Origin: a virus
Length of the DNA stretch: 41,893 nucleotides
Virus record (IMG/VR): IMGVR_UViG_3300008259_000199
Location: 1-41,893 of that record
Strand: one strand, 5' to 3'
Shown: piece after piece, positions 1,167-24,092 of the stretch
Position numbering within the stretch: position 1 is the stretch's first letter
Layout of the letters: each line of letters begins with the position of its first letter
Position numbers and translations under genes: made by a program
Notes under the pieces: generated by a model
What the model saw: only the letters and a program-made list of their open reading frames with translations
Told to the model about the DNA's origin: nothing
Databases searched by the model: none

Positions 1167-2858
1167 TTAGACTTGGTTCAAGTCACCAACATAGATTTTC
1201 CCATAAAATTCTGGGCGGACTACTTTCTTAGCGTAGCGGGTCATTACACCTCTACGTGGAGTGAAGTTGATTGGATCATATACCAATGGAGTTTGTACCA
1301 ATGGAATATATGGAGCATAAACTGCACCGGTTTCTAGGAAGTTGTTACCACGGAAACCAAGCAAGATTGTGTTTTCTTGCATGTATGGATTCTTGTAAAC
1401 TTGGAAACGGGAAGCAAAAGAACCAACACGGCTTACGCCCATTGCGAACTTAGCACTATCACCGTCAGTGTTTACAACGTATCCTGGGATGGATTCCAAT
1501 ACAGTGGCTACGTCTGGTCCTACAACCAAGAAGTTAGCACCACCACGTAGGGTCAATTGGTGAATCTTGTTAGATACCTTTTGGATCTTGTTACCAAGAG
1601 TTTGGTACCAAGTGCTCTTTACGTAAGCAGTACGATTGGTTGAATCGTTGTTTACGGTGAAGGTTGGTAGACCTGCACTGTCATTTGCACCCTTGACTAG
1701 TTCCTTACCAATTACGGCGGACCAAGCTTCAGTGGTCAATGCTGGAGCAGCACTGATCAACATGTCCATGATTTCAAGATCAATTTCCATTGATACATAT
1801 TCACTCAATAGAGCAGTCAATTCTGCTTCTGCGTCAATGCTGTGGTAAGCATTCAAGTCTTGAGCCAATTCTGGGGTCCAGACTGCCTTCAACTTACGGG
1901 TCTTAGCAACAATTGGTTCACTCTTTAGTTCCAAGTTAACTTCTGGAATGTTGATATCAGTACCCTTGTCAATACCGTTATTAACAGCTTCACCCTTGAA
2001 TGGATTGGTATCTTCAAAGTCACCACGGGTTTGATCAGTTGGTTGCTTTGTATAAGTTAGGACTGCGGCACCACTGGCGTTACCTGCAGCAGTTGAACCA
2101 GTTACAATGAATTGTACAATGTAGTAGTTAGCAGTAGTTAGAGAACCAGTGTTATATACCTTGGTCAATTCATTTAGTACGTTAACTGGATTGATACCAG
2201 AAGCACTGATGGTGAAGCTTCTTACAGCATTCAAGTCAGTGTTAATTGTGTTAGTACCAACTAGAACATTGATCTTTTGACCAACGAATGGCAATGTACT
2301 TGATGTAATTGAGCTATCAAAGTTTAGATCACTCAAGGTTGCGGAACCTGAGGTGGTGCTCAATGATTGGGTGAAATAGTTACTGGTGTATGAATAACGG
2401 CCAACACCATATAGACCGTTTTCTGGAGAATCAGTAGAACCTAGCTTGATGCCAGTACCACCGAACATTGATGAACCACTGAATGGGTTAGATCCTGGTA
2501 GACCGTTACGGTTGGTGCCGTACTTGAAGTCTAGATAGAAGATTAGACCAGATGGTAGGTTCATTGGTTGAACTGAAACGAATTCCTTAGCGGAGATTTC
2601 AGCGAATACACGGCGAACCAATGGAAGAGCTACGCCAGCCCATTGTTCACTGTTTTGGGAAGTACCTGTAGAGGTAGATTCATCAAGCAATTGCTTGGCT
2701 TGGTTTTCCAATAGGATAGACATATTGGCCTTTTCAATGCCTTCTAGACCTTCAAGAAGACCTGTCTTGTCCCATTTGTTTTGCAATCCACGAGTTTCAG
2801 TCATCAACTTAGCTTGTGGGTTCATATTGTTTGTCAATAGACTCTTAATATCACTCAT
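1167..2858 (-). CDS. 23: Major capsid protein, T4 gp23-like
   Basis: This 563-residue protein forms the capsid shell (T4 gp23 has 521). Recognisable features are the segment around 73-112 (WAGVALPLVRRVFAEIS, then VQPMNLPSG and FYLDFKYG) and the C-terminal part with YVPYIPL-like, PLVYDP and RRGVMTRYAKK motifs. L58-D59-E60 before S61 matches the (L/I)xE prohead-protease rule and would remove a propeptide close in length to the 65 residues removed in T4. Codons end in C or G far more often than in neighbouring genes (AAC, AAG, ATC, TTC), as expected for the most abundant virion protein. The start is preceded by AGAAAG. A 50-base gap separates it from the scaffold gene, with which it is probably co-transcribed, and a strong terminator follows. 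Confidence 0.96.
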   Translation of the reverse strand: MSDIKSLLTNNMNPQAKLMTETRGLQNKWDKTGLLEGLEGIEKANMSILLENQAKQLLDESTSTGTSQNSEQWAGVALPLVRRVFAEISAKEFVSVQPMNLPSGLIFYLDFKYGTNRNGLPGSNPFSGSSMFGGTGIKLGSTDSPENGLYGVGRYSYTSNYFTQSLSTTSGSATLSDLNFDSSITSSTLPFVGQKINVLVGTNTINTDLNAVRSFTISASGINPVNVLNELTKVYNTGSLTTANYYIVQFIVTGSTAAGNASGAAVLTYTKQPTDQTRGDFEDTNPFKGEAVNNGIDKGTDINIPEVNLELKSEPIVAKTRKLKAVWTPELAQDLNAYHSIDAEAELTALLSEYVSMEIDLEIMDMLISAAPALTTEAWSAVIGKELVKGANDSAGLPTFTVNNDSTNRTAYVKSTWYQTLGNKIQKVSNKIHQLTLRGGANFLVVGPDVATVLESIPGYVVNTDGDSAKFAMGVSRVGSFASRFQVYKNPYMQENTILLGFRGNNFLETGAVYAPYIPLVQTPLVYDPINFTPRRGVMTRYAKKVVRPEFYGKIYVGDLNQV

Positions 2859-2908
2859 ATTTTCTTTCTGTATTTTAGTTTTTTGTTTACTTGCCTTGTT
2901 TTAATTTT

Positions 2909-3898
2909 TTACTTCTTAATTCCGGCAAGTCTTTGGAATCTTGAAGCCATCACGTTGCTGTTTTCAACAATCAATTCCTTCTTAGGAGCTGTTGATGCAA
3001 CTGGTTTACTTGCCAAACCTTCGGTGATAGTTTGTGCAGCTGTATTTGGTTTCTTGACAGCTGATCCACCTGAACTAAGTGATTCGGACAAAATTTTATA
3101 ACTCAACTTAACTTCACGGATGGAGCTGGTTAAGTCGAAAGTTTCTACTACCTTCATCTTTTGAGCTTGGTTCAATGAGAACTTATTGAACAACTTGTTG
3201 GTGTACAACAACTTAGCATTCAAAAGATTGATTTCATTCAATTGATCACGTAGGAATTGAACGGTATTTAAAGCTTCAGCCAATTGAACAGATTCTTCAG
3301 TTTGTTCTTTTACTTCTTCTTTATCTTCTTCTTCTTCTTCAGAATCATGTTTCTTAGCTTCATCTACTTCTTCAACTTCTTCACTCAAGGTGTCTAGAAG
3401 TTCTTGTAGATTGATTTCTTCATCAACTTCTTCTACTTCTTCAGCAGCTACTGGAGCTTCTGGAGCAGGAGCTGGTGCAACTGGTGCTTCTGGAGCAGGA
3501 GCTGGGGCTGGTACTTCAGCAGCAGGTTCAGCAGCTACTGGAGCTTCTGGAGCAGGTGCTGGATCAGCTGGTGCATCTCCCATTTCTCTTTCAAGTTCAG
3601 CAAGAATTTCATCAAGTTCTTCACTTGTTACTTCTTCATCTGATTCTTCAAACATTTGATTTGCGCCTGGATCTTGGTTGGTAGATTGTGTACCAAGTGG
3701 TGCTACACTTTTACCTGAACCAATATCAGAAGAATGAACTGCTTCATCTTCCATACCAATTTCACTCTTTAGTTTTTCAGCTAACATTGCTTCCAATGTT
3801 GGCTTGAATGATTCTTCTAATGCGGCTTTTGCATTTGCTAGAGCAGTAGCACGTACAGCCTTAGCGTCAGCAATAGCTTCCTTTAATAAATCTGACAT
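2909..3898 (-). CDS. 22: Prohead core scaffold protein, T4 gp22-like
   Basis: The 329-residue acidic protein lies immediately upstream of the capsid gene, the position of gp22 in T4. Residues about 1-50 are helical and Ala/Lys/Glu-rich with several LxE sites. A low-complexity middle (about 110-190) consists of Pro-Ala-Glu repeats (PAPAPEAPVA) and Glu-rich tracts. A helical segment follows, and the protein ends VMASRFQRLAGIKK. Scaffold proteins of this family form the temporary prohead core and are cut to peptides by gp21; the many Glu sites fit. The ATG has a good ribosome site, AAAGG 7 bases upstream. The long leader (3899-3998) has two small hairpins. Assignment rests on position, composition and length rather than on a catalytic motif. 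Confidence 0.85.
   Translation of the reverse strand: MSDLLKEAIADAKAVRATALANAKAALEESFKPTLEAMLAEKLKSEIGMEDEAVHSSDIGSGKSVAPLGTQSTNQDPGANQMFEESDEEVTSEELDEILAELEREMGDAPADPAPAPEAPVAAEPAAEVPAPAPAPEAPVAPAPAPEAPVAAEEVEEVDEEINLQELLDTLSEEVEEVDEAKKHDSEEEEEDKEEVKEQTEESVQLAEALNTVQFLRDQLNEINLLNAKLLYTNKLFNKFSLNQAQKMKVVETFDLTSSIREVKLSYKILSESLSSGGSAVKKPNTAAQTITEGLASKPVASTAPKKELIVENSNVMASRFQRLAGIKK
3441..3556. repeat. Direct repeats in the scaffold gene low-complexity region
   Basis: A 29-base exact direct repeat occurs at 3441-3469 and again at 3528-3556, with partial copies of GCTTCTGGAGCAGGAGCTGG between them. It encodes the Pro-Ala-Glu repeats of the gp22-like protein. It is in frame with the gene, so copy-number changes would keep the protein readable. 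Confidence 0.85.
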
Positions 3899-17705: not shown

Positions 17706-20700
17706 TTATATAAAACTTATTTTACTAAATCCGTTTTCTTTCTTAATTTCAATTCTGTTGTCAACCATATCTCTCATAACATCCAAGTGACTTATAATCC
17801 AAACAAAGTCAAAATTAGTCTTCAAAAAGGCAAATAGTGTACTCATAGATGACAGATTATCAGCATCAGCACATCCAAATCCTTCATCAATAGCTATAAA
17901 ATTAGGTCTTGGTAAGTTACTTACATTAATTAATGCTACTCTAATAGCCAGTGAACTGATAAATCTTTCCAATCCACTAGCTAATTCTAATGGCCACTTC
18001 TTATCTTCATAATTAATATGTGTAGTTACATTTTTACCATCAGTCTGTAGAGTTACAGTAAATTCAACGATCTGATTTAATATGTTATTAACTTCCTTTT
18101 CAATTGTAGGAAGAGCTTTACTGATCAAATCATATGGTATACCGTCTCTTGAAATTGCAGAAGTGTACAATTGATATGCTTCATATTGAGTTTCTAATAA
18201 TTTAGTGTCTTCAATATTCTTCTCAATTGTTTTCTTCTGTTCAATTGAGTTTGATAACTTGGTAGTATGATTAATTATACTATTATTTTTATTTTTAATA
18301 TCAACGTCAATTGATTTTATATTAAGTTTGATACTTTCAATTGTTTGTTTAATAGTTTGATTAAACTCAATTGCATCTTTTTGTTCATAATATTCTTTAA
18401 TCTGTGATTCTACATTAATCAAACTGTTTTGATCAGTAGAAATCTTATTTTCTGTTTTTAGAATATCATTGCTTAACTTTGAAATCTTAGATTCTAATTC
18501 AGCTTTTACTCTATAAGCCTCATTATATTTTTTATAATCATCACCAATAAATGTCAGTTCATTTACTTTATTTTTAGACTGTGTATATTCTGTAACAAGA
18601 GTTTGAGCTTCATGTTTATCAACTTCTAACTCTTCTCTGGTCTTGATTGCATCTTTTACGAATACATTGGTTGTACAGTAAATACAATTTGGATCATATT
18701 TATGTTCCTCTAGTTTTTTTAATTTATCTAGTTTAGATTTTACAACAATTTTTTTCTTCTCAATCAACTGTTCTGTTTGTTTTAGTGAACTTGATAGTTC
18801 AGTAAACTTTTCATACTTGGTAGTAATGTCATCATTTTCATAATTTGAAATGATTTGATTATTTTCTTTTAGAGAATTTTGAAGTTGAACGTCTTGATTT
18901 TTAAAAGTCAATAGACTAGAAGAATGTGTAGAAATATTATTCTCCAACATGATCTTCTTTGATTCCAATGATGTAATATCAGTGAAATTGCCTGTGATAT
19001 TAATCAATTTCTTAGTTTCTTCTAACAGTCTATTGTTTTCATCTTCACGTTGTTGTGTTAGATCATCCAGTAGTTTATTTTCAGACTCCACCATACTAGA
19101 TGAAATCTCAATAGAATTAGTCAAATCTAATAACTTCTGTGTATAATCATTATTTTTAAAATTCTTCAACAATACATTGATTTCTTTGGTCTTATCTGAT
19201 GCATCATTATACAAATTATCAAATATAGTTAGTCCCATGAATTGTGCCAATAGATCTTTACGTTCTGTTTGACCCATATCAACAAATGAACCTACTTTAT
19301 TATTTTGAATACTCAATACAGTCAAAATAAAGTCATCATAAGTACCTACATAATCTCTGATAATGTCATTAGTTGATCTACGTGCTTCACCATTAAGTTC
19401 AATTACTTTACCACCCTCTTCTTTCCAGAACTTAACATCCACTTTGACATTACCCTTCTTATCAGCTTGACCTTTTCTTTCAATAAAGAAATCAGTTCCG
19501 TTAACTTCAAAGTTAAACTTACATTTGAAGTTCATTTTTTGACTGTTAAGAATGTGAGATGCTTTAAATGCACGGTCACATTTATCAAAAATACAAAATG
19601 ATAGTGCAGATAATACACTAGATTTACCTGATGCATTGTTAGCAAACAAACCAACTACATCATGCATCTTAGTGAAATCAATTACATTATCTTCACCATA
19701 ACTAAACATATTATCAAATTCAAACTTCTTAGGTTTCCATCTGATATTTTTTACAATATGTTCTTTTTCTAAAGTAGCATTTAAATCCTTGTTTATTTTA
19801 TAAATTTGTTCAAAGGTATCTTTGGTTACATTATTATTTTTTGATGTGATGTAGTCAGTAATTAATTTATTTTGATAATCAACGTCTGATACGTCATTCA
19901 AATTAAAGTCAGTACTATTAATGATATTTTTTGATGAAATATCACCAGCATCTACTCTAACATAAGACACTTCTGTAACTTCACACACTTCTCTTACCTT
20001 TGAAAGTGCAGACTTAACTTCAGTAGCTACACTTTCCATACACTTCATTCTGAGTCTTGCCTTTTTAGGAATATCAGAAAAGTCTGTAACCAATTTACCT
20101 TTGTTTACTTCAACTGTATAAAATCCATAGTCATTGACCACTTCAAAATGTTTGAATGCTTTGGTCTTTAGATCCCAAAAAACAAATCCGTGACCCTTTA
20201 ATTCTTCTCCATGGTTTTGTTGAATCAATGAACCAGCATAAACAATGGTAGTTTCATCTCTTTCTAGAACTTGGTGTTTATGAATATCACCTAATAGAAC
20301 AATTTGGTGTCCTTCAAACAACTTGTTTGTGATTGTTCTACTGGTTACCTTATAACCAACATCCGTAATTGCATCATTTACAGGTCCATGAAACAGTGCA
20401 ATGTTGTATCTGGTTTCATTTAGATATACTTTTGGAATGTCTTTGAACTTAATGTAATTTTCTGGTTCATCAAAGACACTATAGTGATTAAATAGAATAT
20501 CTCCCAAGATATAAAGACCGGAATCTTTTAAATAAAATAGGTTAGGATGATTAATTGCGTTAACAATAGGACTCAGACTGTCTAGTCTATTTTTATTAGC
20601 TAGAGTAGCATCATGATTACCGGCAATCAATACGGTTGGTCTTCTGTTGGCAAGATTTTGAAGAAAATCAGATGCCATTTTAACGCATTCAGGTGAAAGA

Positions 20701-20891
20701 TCACTCTTTGAATGAAAGAGGTCACCCAATACCGCAACAACTGTTTCAGTTGGTGTTTTTTCAACTGCTTTGTATAACTTTTCAAACACCTGTTGATATT
20801 CATCATGTCTCTTTGTAAGACGTAGGTGAATATCTGCAATGTGAAAAATATTCTTATACTCTTGTATATCTGATTTTAGATATGTTGCCAT
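17706..20891 (-). CDS. Single-chain Mre11-Rad50 (gp47-gp46 / SbcD-SbcC) fusion
   Basis: One uninterrupted 1061-residue frame joins both subunits of the DNA-end processing complex. Residues about 12-260 are an Mre11/SbcD/gp47-type phosphoesterase: D20-x-H22 (HIADIHL), GD57LFH60, GNHD (91-94), H168 (LFHGP) and GDIHKH (201-206). After a linker (about 270-385), residues about 386-1061 are a Rad50/SbcC/gp46-type ATPase: Walker A GLFANNASGKSS with K423, a long coiled coil with the zinc hook C736-I-Y-C739 at its tip, signature ASGLE (971-975), Walker B FIAIDE (998-1003) and H-loop H1035. In T4 these are two genes, 47 and 46. The complex would process ends in recombination-dependent replication. It lies 1 base after the primase TOPRIM frame and is followed by the sheath gene. 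All catalytic positions look intact. Confidence 0.95.
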   Translation of the reverse strand: MATYLKSDIQEYKNIFHIADIHLRLTKRHDEYQQVFEKLYKAVEKTPTETVVAVLGDLFHSKSDLSPECVKMASDFLQNLANRRPTVLIAGNHDATLANKNRLDSLSPIVNAINHPNLFYLKDSGLYILGDILFNHYSVFDEPENYIKFKDIPKVYLNETRYNIALFHGPVNDAITDVGYKVTSRTITNKLFEGHQIVLLGDIHKHQVLERDETTIVYAGSLIQQNHGEELKGHGFVFWDLKTKAFKHFEVVNDYGFYTVEVNKGKLVTDFSDIPKKARLRMKCMESVATEVKSALSKVREVCEVTEVSYVRVDAGDISSKNIINSTDFNLNDVSDVDYQNKLITDYITSKNNNVTKDTFEQIYKINKDLNATLEKEHIVKNIRWKPKKFEFDNMFSYGEDNVIDFTKMHDVVGLFANNASGKSSVLSALSFCIFDKCDRAFKASHILNSQKMNFKCKFNFEVNGTDFFIERKGQADKKGNVKVDVKFWKEEGGKVIELNGEARRSTNDIIRDYVGTYDDFILTVLSIQNNKVGSFVDMGQTERKDLLAQFMGLTIFDNLYNDASDKTKEINVLLKNFKNNDYTQKLLDLTNSIEISSSMVESENKLLDDLTQQREDENNRLLEETKKLINITGNFTDITSLESKKIMLENNISTHSSSLLTFKNQDVQLQNSLKENNQIISNYENDDITTKYEKFTELSSSLKQTEQLIEKKKIVVKSKLDKLKKLEEHKYDPNCIYCTTNVFVKDAIKTREELEVDKHEAQTLVTEYTQSKNKVNELTFIGDDYKKYNEAYRVKAELESKISKLSNDILKTENKISTDQNSLINVESQIKEYYEQKDAIEFNQTIKQTIESIKLNIKSIDVDIKNKNNSIINHTTKLSNSIEQKKTIEKNIEDTKLLETQYEAYQLYTSAISRDGIPYDLISKALPTIEKEVNNILNQIVEFTVTLQTDGKNVTTHINYEDKKWPLELASGLERFISSLAIRVALINVSNLPRPNFIAIDEGFGCADADNLSSMSTLFAFLKTNFDFVWIISHLDVMRDMVDNRIEIKKENGFSKISFI

Positions 20892-20892
20892 A

Positions 20893-21579
20893 TTATATTG
20901 TTATCTTTAATTTAAACAGTCTCTCAAAGTCTACTGTATCAGTAGCATCTATCATTTGCCAAGTTTTTTCAAAACCAATTACGTTTGGATCTTTACCGTC
21001 TAATTGAACTAATTTTACTGGAATATCATGTTTTGTTAAAAACTCACATATTTTTATAGAATCTTCCAACGCATCATTGTCCAACAAGACATTTACCATT
21101 GGTACATCATATTCCAACAGTTTCATCTTTAGTTTTTTACTCATTGTTTTTCCAAATAATGGAATACAATTTGTTCTTACTGCAATAGCATCAAATGGAC
21201 CTTCAACTAATGTGACTGGTTCATCAAAATTGATTAACATTTCAAATCCAATGATGTTTTTTGAATAGTTACAACTTACATATTTCAATGATTTGGTTTC
21301 ATAAAAACTTCTTGCGGTAAAGAAATTTAAATTGCCATTACAATCATAAGAAGGTACTACAATTCTGTTTTTATATTGTCCTTCTGTACAATATCCAATG
21401 TTATATCTAAGAATATCTGACTTTGTAATTCCTCTGTTCTTTAAATATACCAAAGCATGTCTATATTCCAATTCAGTTGATGGTTGATACATTGGTTTAT
21501 ATTCTTTTGGTAAATAGTGTAGTTCAACCTTTTCAGGTTCTTCATCAAAAGAAATTAAGAAATCTTTTGTTTGCCACAT
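20893..21579 (-). CDS. DnaG-type primase catalytic (TOPRIM) part
   Basis: From ATG 21579 this frame gives 228 residues; a TTG two codons upstream (21585) is also possible. It contains the primase core: YRHALVYLKNRGITKSDILR, then VTLVEGPFDAIAVR with the VEG and Asp of TOPRIM motif 1, and VLLDNDALED with the paired Asp, then DGKDPN. Such primases make RNA primers for lagging-strand synthesis. The zinc-binding domain expected at its N-terminus lies upstream in the -1-related frame (21555-21743), overlapping this frame by 25 bases. So the primase is either made as two polypeptides, joined by a -1 frameshift, or broken by an indel in the sequence. The stop is 1 base from the Mre11-Rad50 fusion start. 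Confidence 0.85.
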   Translation of the reverse strand: MWQTKDFLISFDEEPEKVELHYLPKEYKPMYQPSTELEYRHALVYLKNRGITKSDILRYNIGYCTEGQYKNRIVVPSYDCNGNLNFFTARSFYETKSLKYVSCNYSKNIIGFEMLINFDEPVTLVEGPFDAIAVRTNCIPLFGKTMSKKLKMKLLEYDVPMVNVLLDNDALEDSIKICEFLTKHDIPVKLVQLDGKDPNVIGFEKTWQMIDATDTVDFERLFKLKITI

Positions 21580-21743
21580 ACCCAACAGTTGTATTTGCCA
21601 GTTACTAAACTTACTTCAAACTTTCTTTTGTAGTGTTTACAAATTGGACAATAGTACACCGCATCAGTTCCCTTTCTGATCTTGGGGATCTGATTTAACA
21701 CTTCATTCAAAGTAGATAAAATTTGTTCTTGTTGTAACAACAT
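21555..21743 (-). CDS. Primase zinc-binding domain frame
   Basis: The 62-residue frame contains a helical start (MLLQQEQILSTLNEVLNQIP) and a four-Cys zinc ribbon: C32-P-I-C35 and C53-W-V-C56 in GKYNCWVCGKQ. This is the pattern of DnaG/T7-type primase zinc domains, which recognise the template priming site. It stops at 21555, 25 bases inside the TOPRIM frame. A continuous protein would need a -1 shift in the overlap; the sequence GGC AAA CAA AAG ATT TCT TAA there has no classical X-XXY-YYZ heptamer. It may be a separate small subunit, a frameshift product, or a sequencing indel. Confidence 0.75.
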   Translation of the reverse strand: MLLQQEQILSTLNEVLNQIPKIRKGTDAVYYCPICKHYKRKFEVSLVTGKYNCWVCGKQKIS

Positions 21744-21769: not shown

Positions 21770-22417
21770 CTATTCTATCAAGTTATTATCTAACGGTTTT
21801 TTCCATGGTTTTTGGTCTAAAGAAACTGCAACTTTCATCAATTTTATTGGATCAATAGGATCTTCAGAAACATCTTCATTTTTTTTGTCATTCTGTTCAA
21901 ATTCTTCACCATTATCTTCAGTTTCCGTATCTTTTTCTTGTGAACCAACATCTTCAGTTGGTGATGGTGGTGTCATGTCTTGTTGAACATTTGCTTGAGT
22001 ATAACTTTGTGGTTTTGGAACGTATCCTATTGCATTTCTCATTATTATACCTTGCATAATGTATCTTTTATAATCATTATACATTTTTTTATAATATTCA
22101 AATGCATTGTATATATCTTTATAGTTTTCATGTGTGATTGTCATCTTCACACAATCATTTTTTTCTTTCCATTTGAGACCAGGAACATCCAATATCATAC
22201 ATGAAACATTTATCAATAAATCTCTTTCATTAGAATCATGTATAATAAAATAAAAGTCTTTTGTTTCTATTGAAGGTGTTAACTCACTGGATGATATATT
22301 GTATTTTAAACAAATTTTTTCCAACTTTTCTTTAGCCACATTTTTTTCACCATCCTTACCTTTCTCAGCTAAGGCTTTTATTTTTTTTGCTAACTCTAAT
22401 ATTTTGTTGCGGTTCAT
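21770..22417 (-). CDS. DUF2786-like protein with acidic tail
   Basis: The 215-residue protein begins MNRNKILELAKKIKALAEKG and continues to a helix ending KICLKYNISSSEL, similar to the N-terminal helical domain called DUF2786 (K-lxLA-K-x(n)-EAx-A-x-K-L-x-KY-xI-x-xxL). A mixed domain follows (about 55-135), then an acidic, probably disordered region rich in Glu, Asp and Thr (about 145-190) and a short C-terminal motif KVAVSLDQKPWKKPL. ATG 22417 was chosen over an in-frame ATG at 22435 because it overlaps the previous stop as ATGA. It lies in the replication block between the homing endonuclease and the primase; its function is unknown. Confidence 0.7.
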   Translation of the reverse strand: MNRNKILELAKKIKALAEKGKDGEKNVAKEKLEKICLKYNISSSELTPSIETKDFYFIIHDSNERDLLINVSCMILDVPGLKWKEKNDCVKMTITHENYKDIYNAFEYYKKMYNDYKRYIMQGIIMRNAIGYVPKPQSYTQANVQQDMTPPSPTEDVGSQEKDTETEDNGEEFEQNDKKNEDVSEDPIDPIKLMKVAVSLDQKPWKKPLDNNLIE

Positions 22418-23232
22418 TGAATATATTTTTTCCAACCTTTATGTTGTATTCTTTTTCCTTGATTAACCGCAACCATATTACTTTGTTGTAAATTGTTTTT
22501 TTTGCAAAATTCTTGTAAATTATTAAATTCAATAACTTCTCCGTTTGGATTGATAAACTTCCATGTTTTAGAATTATTATATTTTCCATCTTCCCATAAT
22601 TTTTTTTGTATCTTTGATAGTATTTTTTTATGATTTGGATTTTTATTATAAAAATTTAATCTAGATATTGAATGTTTCTTTTTTACTTTTTCTGATGAAT
22701 TTGACATTTTAATACGAATTCTATGATTTTCTAAAAAATTAATATCATTTTTAAATTTTTCTTTTAATGTAATAGATTGTTTTTTTCTTACTTCATTCCA
22801 ATTCACTTTTTCTCGGCCATCCCAATATTTTTTAATAAATTTTTCATCTTTATATTTTTTCAATAATGCATCTGAAATTATTTTTTTAGATTGAATTTTA
22901 TGTTTAAATCCAGACATACCTTCACCGCCTTCAGTCAAATTGCATAAAATTCCAGATTTATCAACTATTCTTCCATAAGTTTTTATTTCTTCTATTTCTA
23001 ATAGAAGAGCAGAATATTCTGAAATATTTTCTTTAATTTTTTTATATATTATATGTCCGTTTAAATCTATAATTTTTTTAATTTTGTAAAATAATAATTT
23101 GTTATTATTTGGTATTTTATTATTCCTCACCATTTTTTCATGATGATACATTCTGTTTTTTATTCCTTTTCCTATATAAAACGGAAGATTATTATGTGAA
23201 TTTATTAAATGATATACATAAAAATTGTCCAT
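22414..23232 (-). CDS. GIY-YIG homing endonuclease, free-standing
   Basis: The 272-residue protein has the GIY-YIG nuclease fold: YVYHL (5-9), FYIGKG (18-23), R27, a catalytic Glu in the ALLLEIEEI stretch (75-83) and the family pattern NLTEGGEGMSGFKH. The C-terminus (about 225-272) is a DNA-binding repeat: WKFINPNGEVIEFNNLQEFCKKNNL then GWKKYIQ, as in NUMOD/intron-encoded-nuclease repeats. Such enzymes cut an allele lacking the gene and spread by repair. It is very AT-rich and its stop overlaps the next start by ATGA, which is unusually tight for a mobile gene. A TATTTATA element lies 31 bases upstream. No intron or intein is visible around it. Confidence 0.9.
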   Translation of the reverse strand: MDNFYVYHLINSHNNLPFYIGKGIKNRMYHHEKMVRNNKIPNNNKLLFYKIKKIIDLNGHIIYKKIKENISEYSALLLEIEEIKTYGRIVDKSGILCNLTEGGEGMSGFKHKIQSKKIISDALLKKYKDEKFIKKYWDGREKVNWNEVRKKQSITLKEKFKNDINFLENHRIRIKMSNSSEKVKKKHSISRLNFYNKNPNHKKILSKIQKKLWEDGKYNNSKTWKFINPNGEVIEFNNLQEFCKKNNLQQSNMVAVNQGKRIQHKGWKKYIQ

Positions 23233-23284: not shown

Positions 23285-23791
23285 TTATTTGAAAAGAGAT
23301 GCAACGATTGCATCATACATATCACCGTTTCTTTCATCCCAATTACCCTTTTTGTTAAGAACAGTAAATTTAATTACATCTGGACATAGAGATTCTAACT
23401 CAGATTTAACAAAGTCTTTGGATTTGATGCCTTTAATTCTACACTTACCAAATAACTGTTTACGCATAGTGTTTACTGATAACAGATTTACTTTTACCTT
23501 GAAGTGTTCTTCAATAATATAAGCAAAAACAGCGTTATGACGGGCTAATGTAATAATAACTTGTTGACTGGTAAATCCACCAGCAAATCCACTTAAAGCA
23601 GCTTCTAAATTAATGGTGGTTACGTCTTTTATTAATGGATTTTTCTCCAATTCTGATATAACAAAAAACGTTTTTTCTTTGGTTGTTTCAAGCTTTTTGG
23701 TGTCAATATAACCAGCATCCAAGACTTTGCCGTCTTTACTAAATGCCCAACCAGTAACTGATGTAGATGAATCTAAACCTAATATAACCAT
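23285..23791 (-). CDS. RuvC-like Holliday junction resolvase
   Basis: The 168-residue protein matches RuvC in size and pattern: MVILGLDSST (D7, first metal ligand) with SVTGWAF, NLEAALSGF (E63), a helical core with QQVIITLARHNAVFAYII, and the C-terminal GDMYDAIVASL with D157 and D160. These four acidic residues form the RNase H-like active site that resolves four-way junctions. ATG 23791 was chosen because it places D7 correctly and leaves a 22-base gap; an upstream in-frame ATG (23887) would run well into the next gene. It neighbours the primase and the Mre11-Rad50 fusion, fitting recombination-dependent replication and debranching of DNA before packaging. Confidence 0.88.
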   Translation of the reverse strand: MVILGLDSSTSVTGWAFSKDGKVLDAGYIDTKKLETTKEKTFFVISELEKNPLIKDVTTINLEAALSGFAGGFTSQQVIITLARHNAVFAYIIEEHFKVKVNLLSVNTMRKQLFGKCRIKGIKSKDFVKSELESLCPDVIKFTVLNKKGNWDERNGDMYDAIVASLFK

Positions 23792-23813
23792 ATACCAATA
23801 TATAGTATATGTA

Positions 23814-24092
23814 TTATCGTTTGTATGGTTTATTATTGAAACCTTGCATGTAAAGTGAAAGTTGTTTGGAACTAGCACCGGCAGCATCTTTCAATTCAGT
23901 TACTCCTGTAGCCATTTTTGTTTTAAATCCCTTTGTAACTGTATAATTTGTTTCAAATGTACTACCTCCTAGAGATACAACGTTGCCACCTTGTCTTACA
24001 ATGTCTTTGGCATTATAAGCACCACCAACAGGTTGTGTTTGATATCTTGTTTCCAAGTTTTTTTCTAATGAAGGTCTATCAATTGTTGCCAT
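23814..24092 (-). CDS. Small unknown protein
   Basis: The 92-residue protein starts MATIDRPSLEKNLETRY and contains GGAYNAKDIVRQGGNVVSLGG, ending MQGFNNKPYKR. It is Gly- and Thr-rich, with no signal peptide, membrane segment or motif I recognise. The TATTTATA element 17 bases upstream and the resolvase gene 22 bases downstream suggest that it starts the replication/recombination transcript, but its composition would also suit a minor tail protein. Confidence 0.65.
   Translation of the reverse strand: MATIDRPSLEKNLETRYQTQPVGGAYNAKDIVRQGGNVVSLGGSTFETNYTVTKGFKTKMATGVTELKDAAGASSKQLSLYMQGFNNKPYKR

Follow-up and report, generated by a model that had tools for sequence, protein, structure and literature searches.

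Two separate genes encode the Mre11-type nuclease and the Rad50-type ATPase in T4 (gp47 and gp46) and E. coli (sbcD and sbcC), as the initial annotation of this locus rightly pointed out, whereas here a single open reading frame appears to carry both. We therefore asked whether this frame is real, how its product might be organised, and what role it could play in the phage. The window, by which we mean the whole stretch of DNA analysed, is a virus contig of 41,893 bases from a lake-water phage, in which tail sheath and terminase genes are present.

One open reading frame encodes both domains

The frame comprises 1061 codons, from an ATG at 20891 to a stop at 17706-17708, and encodes a fused Mre11/SbcD nuclease and Rad50/SbcC ATPase, both of them complete. 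The extent 17706-20891 had been given correctly in the initial annotation, which did not name the strand; this proved to be the minus strand, stops being found throughout the same interval on the plus strand. Using Pfam, we identified Metallophos at residues 14-205 (E 2.5e-12), the Rad50-type AAA_23 at 393-629 (2.4e-8) and a weak match to SbcC_Walker_B at 972-1020 (0.014), while the PHROG profiles for SbcD (phrog_100, residues 13-375, 9.8e-25) and SbcC (phrog_77, residues 260-1059, 1.8e-45) correspond to the two halves of the chain. All the motifs cited in the initial annotation lie at the residues given there, as confirmed with a motif script and, for His1035, by its invariance in the family (Table 1). 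The product is a true one-chain fusion of Mre11 and Rad50 in which the active-site motifs are complete, and the original proposal of one 1061-residue frame was borne out by profiles, predicted folds and the single frame seen in relatives.

Table 1 Features of the fusion gene and its upstream neighbours, in window coordinates
Feature	Position	Strand	Basis
Mre11-Rad50 (SbcD-SbcC) fusion ORF, 1061 aa	17706..20891	-	Pfam, PHROG, motif script, relatives
Mre11/SbcD half, residues 1-373	19773..20891	-	Pfam/PHROG; predicted structure; SbcD/Mre11 structural match Z ~25
Linker, residues 374-385, ~12 aa	19737..19772	-	Lies after predicted helix 357-373 and before predicted strand 386-393
Rad50/SbcC half, residues 386-1061: split ABC head, coiled coil	17709..19736	-	Pfam/PHROG, predicted structure, Rad50 head match Z ~20
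Phosphoesterase motif D20xH22	20826..20834	-	Motif script; D20 and H22 invariant
Phosphoesterase motif GDLFH 56-60 (GD57xxH60)	20712..20726	-	Motif script, family alignment
Phosphoesterase motif GNHD 91-94; intein site in relative L143	20610..20621	-	Motif script, alignment
Phosphoesterase motif GDIHKH 201-206; L084 and L146 interrupted just 3'	20274..20291	-	Motif script, alignment
Walker A ANNASGKS 417-424 (K423)	19620..19643	-	Motif script, fused/unfused alignment
Zinc hook CIYC 736-739 (C736xxC739)	18675..18686	-	Motif script; both Cys invariant
ABC signature ASGLE 971-975	17967..17981	-	Motif script, fused/unfused alignment
Walker B FIAIDE 998-1003, DE at 1002-1003	17883..17900	-	Motif script, alignment
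H-switch His1035	17787..17789	-	Invariant in family alignments
DnaG-type primase/TOPRIM gene, directly upstream, 1 nt gap to fusion ATG	20893..21743	-	Pfam, PHROG
RuvC-like Holliday-junction resolvase, same gene cluster	23285..23887	-	phrog_827

Predicted fold of the two halves

A structural model of the fusion was generated using AlphaFold2 with 35 family members as input (mean pLDDT 79.7, pTM 0.39); since the pTM is this low, the mutual placement of the two halves in the model is unreliable. Taken separately, each half matched its own family: residues 12-312 superimposed on SbcD/Mre11 nuclease-capping structures (Z ~25, rmsd ~3 Å over 278-285 residues), and residues 385-1042 on Rad50 heads (Z ~20). 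The phosphoesterase and capping domains are predicted to occupy approximately residues 1-312, with the strands and helices at 235-312 forming the capping region. Two further predicted helices, 337-351 and 357-373, lie at the place expected for the Rad50-binding helix-loop-helix of Mre11, and the Mre11 alignments to 3tho_B and 6s6v_A extend over them to residue 373-375, with a high rmsd in that part. In the Rad50 half, the key residues of the ABC head are present (K423, S972-G973-E975, D1002-E1003 and H1035), and the helices at ~555-941 are predicted to form the coiled coil, with C736xxC739 at its apex.

In the model the linker separates the last Mre11 helix from the first Rad50 strand. It has previously been estimated that 9-12 residues would bridge Mre11 to Rad50 in cis (PMC3175470); the ~12 residues found here agree with this estimate and would allow cis assembly.

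Gene neighbourhood and probable function

The primase gene precedes the fusion in all 129 testable relatives, and the RuvC-like resolvase gene lies upstream in 104 of 120. The window's own primase gene is frameshifted, with ~90 nt missing relative to the near-identical relatives L001-L004, which may be a lesion of the phage genome itself or a fault of the assembly. Between the resolvase gene and a gene for a 221-residue protein lies a further gene (22414-23232, minus strand) with weak Pfam matches to homing-type GIY-YIG/NUMOD endonucleases, which is not found at the corresponding place in relative L036. The terminases nearest to that of the window come from Flavobacterium phage immuto (51.7%) and Microcystis phage Mel-JY01 (50.7%), so that the host is uncertain.

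The reading that we favour, with a probability of roughly 0.85 for the whole, is that the protein brings together a complete Mre11 and a complete Rad50 in one chain to form an M2R2 end-processing machine that does the job of T4 gp46/gp47. Two fusion chains would most likely dimerise to give the usual M2R2 assembly, with each nuclease sitting in cis at the base of the coiled coil of the same chain, and ATP-driven opening and closing of the heads would allow the processing of double-strand DNA ends. The covalent link would fix the stoichiometry at 1:1 and tether the nuclease to the ATPase. Dimerisation, cis pairing, the nuclease and ATPase activities and a role in resection are all features that we infer for the fusion. 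The processed ends would then feed the recombination-dependent replication and repair of the phage, as in T4, where gp46/gp47 act in end resection for recombination-dependent replication (PMC3016280). A role in replication and recombination is our best inference by analogy, since the gene is linked to those for a primase and a RuvC-like protein, its T4 homologues act in resection, and the complete genome of Mel-JY01, which also encodes such a fusion, contains no convincing second SbcC or SbcD gene. The window being a 41.9-kb fragment, a second copy may lie elsewhere in its source genome.

We give little credence to recruitment of the fusion to another job, such as host-DNA degradation, defence or counter-defence, in place of the processing of the phage's own DNA ends. 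T4 gp46/47 are also annotated as required for host-DNA degradation, and the fold matches included SMC-like ATPases from JetABC and Lamassu defence systems; against this, the neighbouring genes encode a primase and a RuvC-like resolvase, the domains are exactly those of Mre11 and Rad50, and no defence-specific partner was found in searches outside the PADLOC library.

Conservation of the single frame among relatives

IMG/VR yielded 199 relatives with the protein query and at least 577 with the alignment query; 80 were kept from each, the contigs being partly shared between the two sets. Loci were then scanned with separate profiles for each half, and a locus was scored as fused where both halves lay in one frame of >1000 aa. 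By this measure, both domains share a frame at 155 of the 170 loci scanned, representing more than 90 distinct proteins with identities down to ~40%. The remaining 15 comprise the four records that served as unfused controls (T4, Staphylococcus phage K, E. coli and Lak), five loci clipped by contig ends and six, on four contigs, that are broken elsewhere. L036 and L105 have a frameshift in the coiled coil (at about residue 770 in L036) and L076 and L138 a single in-frame stop near residue 943 in the Rad50 half, each of which may be a sequencing error or mark a pseudogene; in L084 and L146 the gene breaks at residue 207-211. A stop or frame break in relatives between residues ~270 and 385 was the refuting observation named in the initial annotation, and no locus shows one.

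Comparison of the window fusion with four relatives gave a dN/dS of ~0.05-0.15 overall, of 0.08-0.20 across the junction (residues 372-400, which hold few sites) and of ~0.24 in the coiled coil against the more distant of the four. On these substitution patterns, purifying selection is indicated along the whole fusion gene. The stretch just past the junction, NIRWxPKxFEFxNMFSYGE, is among the best-conserved parts of the protein. In the Mre11 half, D20, H22, G56, D57, H60, G91-D94, H168 and G201-H204 are invariant in 35 diverged members, across which the catalytic residues, hook cysteines, Walker A and B motifs and H-switch likewise show no change.

These comparisons bear on the idea that the chain is later cleaved, or that an internal start adds free Rad50, so that the subunits are separate in the functional complex. 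Residues 381-401 show a modest dip in synonymous codon change (0.347 versus a mean of 0.436, ~2.3 SD); however, windows as low occur at 783-803, at 825-853 and at the gene start, and there is no in-frame ATG from the linker to Met395, which is already within the Rad50 domain. We rejected an internal start on these grounds, and, with the halves remaining fused over deep divergence, the chance of separate subunits of either kind appears slim. That the frame is an artefact of assembly or sequencing, with two adjacent genes joined through a missed stop or frameshift, has a negligible probability and is refuted by the relatives: the frameshifted primase gene shows that such errors or lesions do occur in this very window, but the fusion frame is unbroken in many metagenomes and in the complete Mel-JY01 genome, with the junction intact everywhere.

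More distant carriers were also sought. The only cellular matches were three fusion relatives (L170, L171 and L172; 38-42%) on metagenome-assembled contigs from a Chloroflexi bin, a Nitrosopelagicus bin and the bin of an unnamed bacterium, which are possibly misbinned phage DNA. No plasmid relative of the window fusion was recovered by tblastn, implying that the known fusions of Clostridium and Deferribacter, if in the searched set, are too distant for this query. Lak phages were considered as carriers and rejected, Mre11 and Rad50 lying in separate frames there even when code 15 was included. Positions 1-150000 of Flavobacterium phage immuto contain no annotated SbcC or SbcD, and a short 'exonuclease' follows the primase of this phage.

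Walker A and signature sequences

The initial annotation had singled out the Walker A and signature sequences as variants. When 25 fused and 8 unfused sets were aligned, both turned out to be ordinary features of the lineage. The Walker A of the clade reads [A/G]xNxxGKS[S/T], the first residue being Ala in most members and Gly in the L131/L133/L142 subclade. Nearly all fused phage rows have the signature SG[L/M/Y/F]E, with GGME in L121, so that SGLE rather than SGGE in the window is a clade feature; the Rad50s of other phages have SEGE (T4 type), S[A/E]GE (Herelleviridae) or STGQ (T5-like). A changed mechanism based on these motifs was rejected, both being ordinary across the clade.

Relation to known fusions and unfused systems

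In 2011, Yoshida, Claverie and Ogata reported Mre11/Rad50 fusions from bacteria, eukaryotes and plasmids as well as from two viruses, Mimivirus (R555) and Bacillus phage 0305phi8-36, the listed carriers including plasmids of Clostridium kluyveri and Deferribacter; R555-like fusions were found to be abundant in aquatic metagenomes and ascribed to viruses, probably in part phages, and fusions were concluded to have arisen several times across life (PMC3175470). The initial annotation had left room for such fusions proving to be common and well studied. They are common in aquatic phages, and the class has long been described, but our literature searches turned up no biochemical study of these proteins, including for this phage clade. 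The window fusion is thus a well-supported further example of a class known since 2011, not a new kind. It shares with the published fusions an N-terminal Mre11, a C-terminal Rad50, a single chain and a short linker, and, like that class, which is borne by viruses and plasmids, it is abundant in aquatic viromes. The present data support the 2011 prediction of many aquatic-phage fusions, the whole gene now being seen beside tail, terminase and primase genes.

Individual members differ in size and completeness. Compared by description, Mimivirus R555 is longer (1351 aa versus 1061), its coiled coil being as long as those of cellular proteins, and its motifs carry substitutions (GDxxH, and a His replaced by Asp242), where the window protein has GDxxH and is otherwise complete in its motif residues. 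The fusion of Bacillus phage 0305phi8-36 lacks the capping/helix-loop-helix region and one P-loop segment, whereas that of the window is complete. Microcystis phage Mel-JY01 encodes a full-length fusion (WWT39521.1; 38.8% identity over 99% of the query) with a primase-like gene upstream, as in the window, and its record is named for the ATPase half only ('AAA domain containing protein') and makes no functional statement. In Tenacibaculum phage pT24, a 1310-aa protein annotated as 'DNA repair' (BAV39141.1) also has Mre11 and Rad50 motifs in one chain, but is very diverged and long-branched, with changes in several of the catalytic motifs (DFQ for DxH). A 735-kb huge phage (LR756501) carries a separate gene for a 566-aa Rad50-like protein (L181:1003-2703) besides a 1202-aa Mre11-Rad50 fusion.

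T4 gp47/gp46 belong to the same two domain families, in the same nuclease-then-ATPase order and with the same probable role in end resection, but are encoded separately, two small genes lying between theirs, and the T4 Rad50 has the signature FSEGE and is shorter (560 aa). The T5-like Vibrio phage D13 likewise has the nuclease followed by the ATPase, but in two genes with a 4-nt overlap. An overlapping, unfused sbcD-sbcC pair of this kind is an arrangement from which the fusion could arise, and we envisage that it did so by stop loss in an sbcD-sbcC operon with touching genes. In a quick tree, one branch (SH-aLRT 99) had all 25 fused rows on the same side; this tree included 8 unfused sets and no plasmid or eukaryote fusions, with pT24 and LR756501 on long branches, and does not establish a single origin. 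Because fusions from plasmids and eukaryotes are absent from it, the set is compatible with the multiple origins proposed earlier (PMC3175470).

At 1061 residues, this natural fusion is much smaller than E. coli SbcD and SbcC together (1448 aa), and a small protein with a locked 1:1 stoichiometry would suit structural work on the gating of the nuclease by the ATPase.

An intein and re-split genes in relatives

In one relative, L143:4959-9122 (IMGVR_UViG_3300037042_006844), the fusion contains an in-frame intein of ~326 aa right after the GNHD motif, which begins with Cys, ends in ...SICGN|C and matches Pfam Intein_splicing at E 1.5e-7, under the curated cut-off. In two others, L084:1441-5663 (LR756508.1) and L146:4971-8308, the fusion is split inside the nuclease active site, just past GDIHKH/GDIHKRQ. 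The two gene pieces of LR756508 are separated by an ORF (2162-3076) with a TnsA-like endonuclease domain, and L146 has an insertion of ~110 nt at the same position, without an endonuclease. The first pieces share a similar added C-terminal tail (EEDELEKYLNSG / REDELESYLSSG), and the second pieces each have their own ATG. A group I intron was considered for both and set aside, there being no Rfam match in either.

Genes-in-pieces are known from T4-related phages, and the splits in LR756508 and L146 resemble them. We tentatively suggest, as a possibility with somewhat less than even odds, that homing elements have repeatedly invaded the fused gene at its nuclease motifs and that it has been re-split in some phages. 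If true, these would be genes-in-pieces for Mre11-Rad50, of which we found no earlier description in the literature, and a working enzyme would be rebuilt from a bare phosphoesterase piece and a capping-Rad50 piece.
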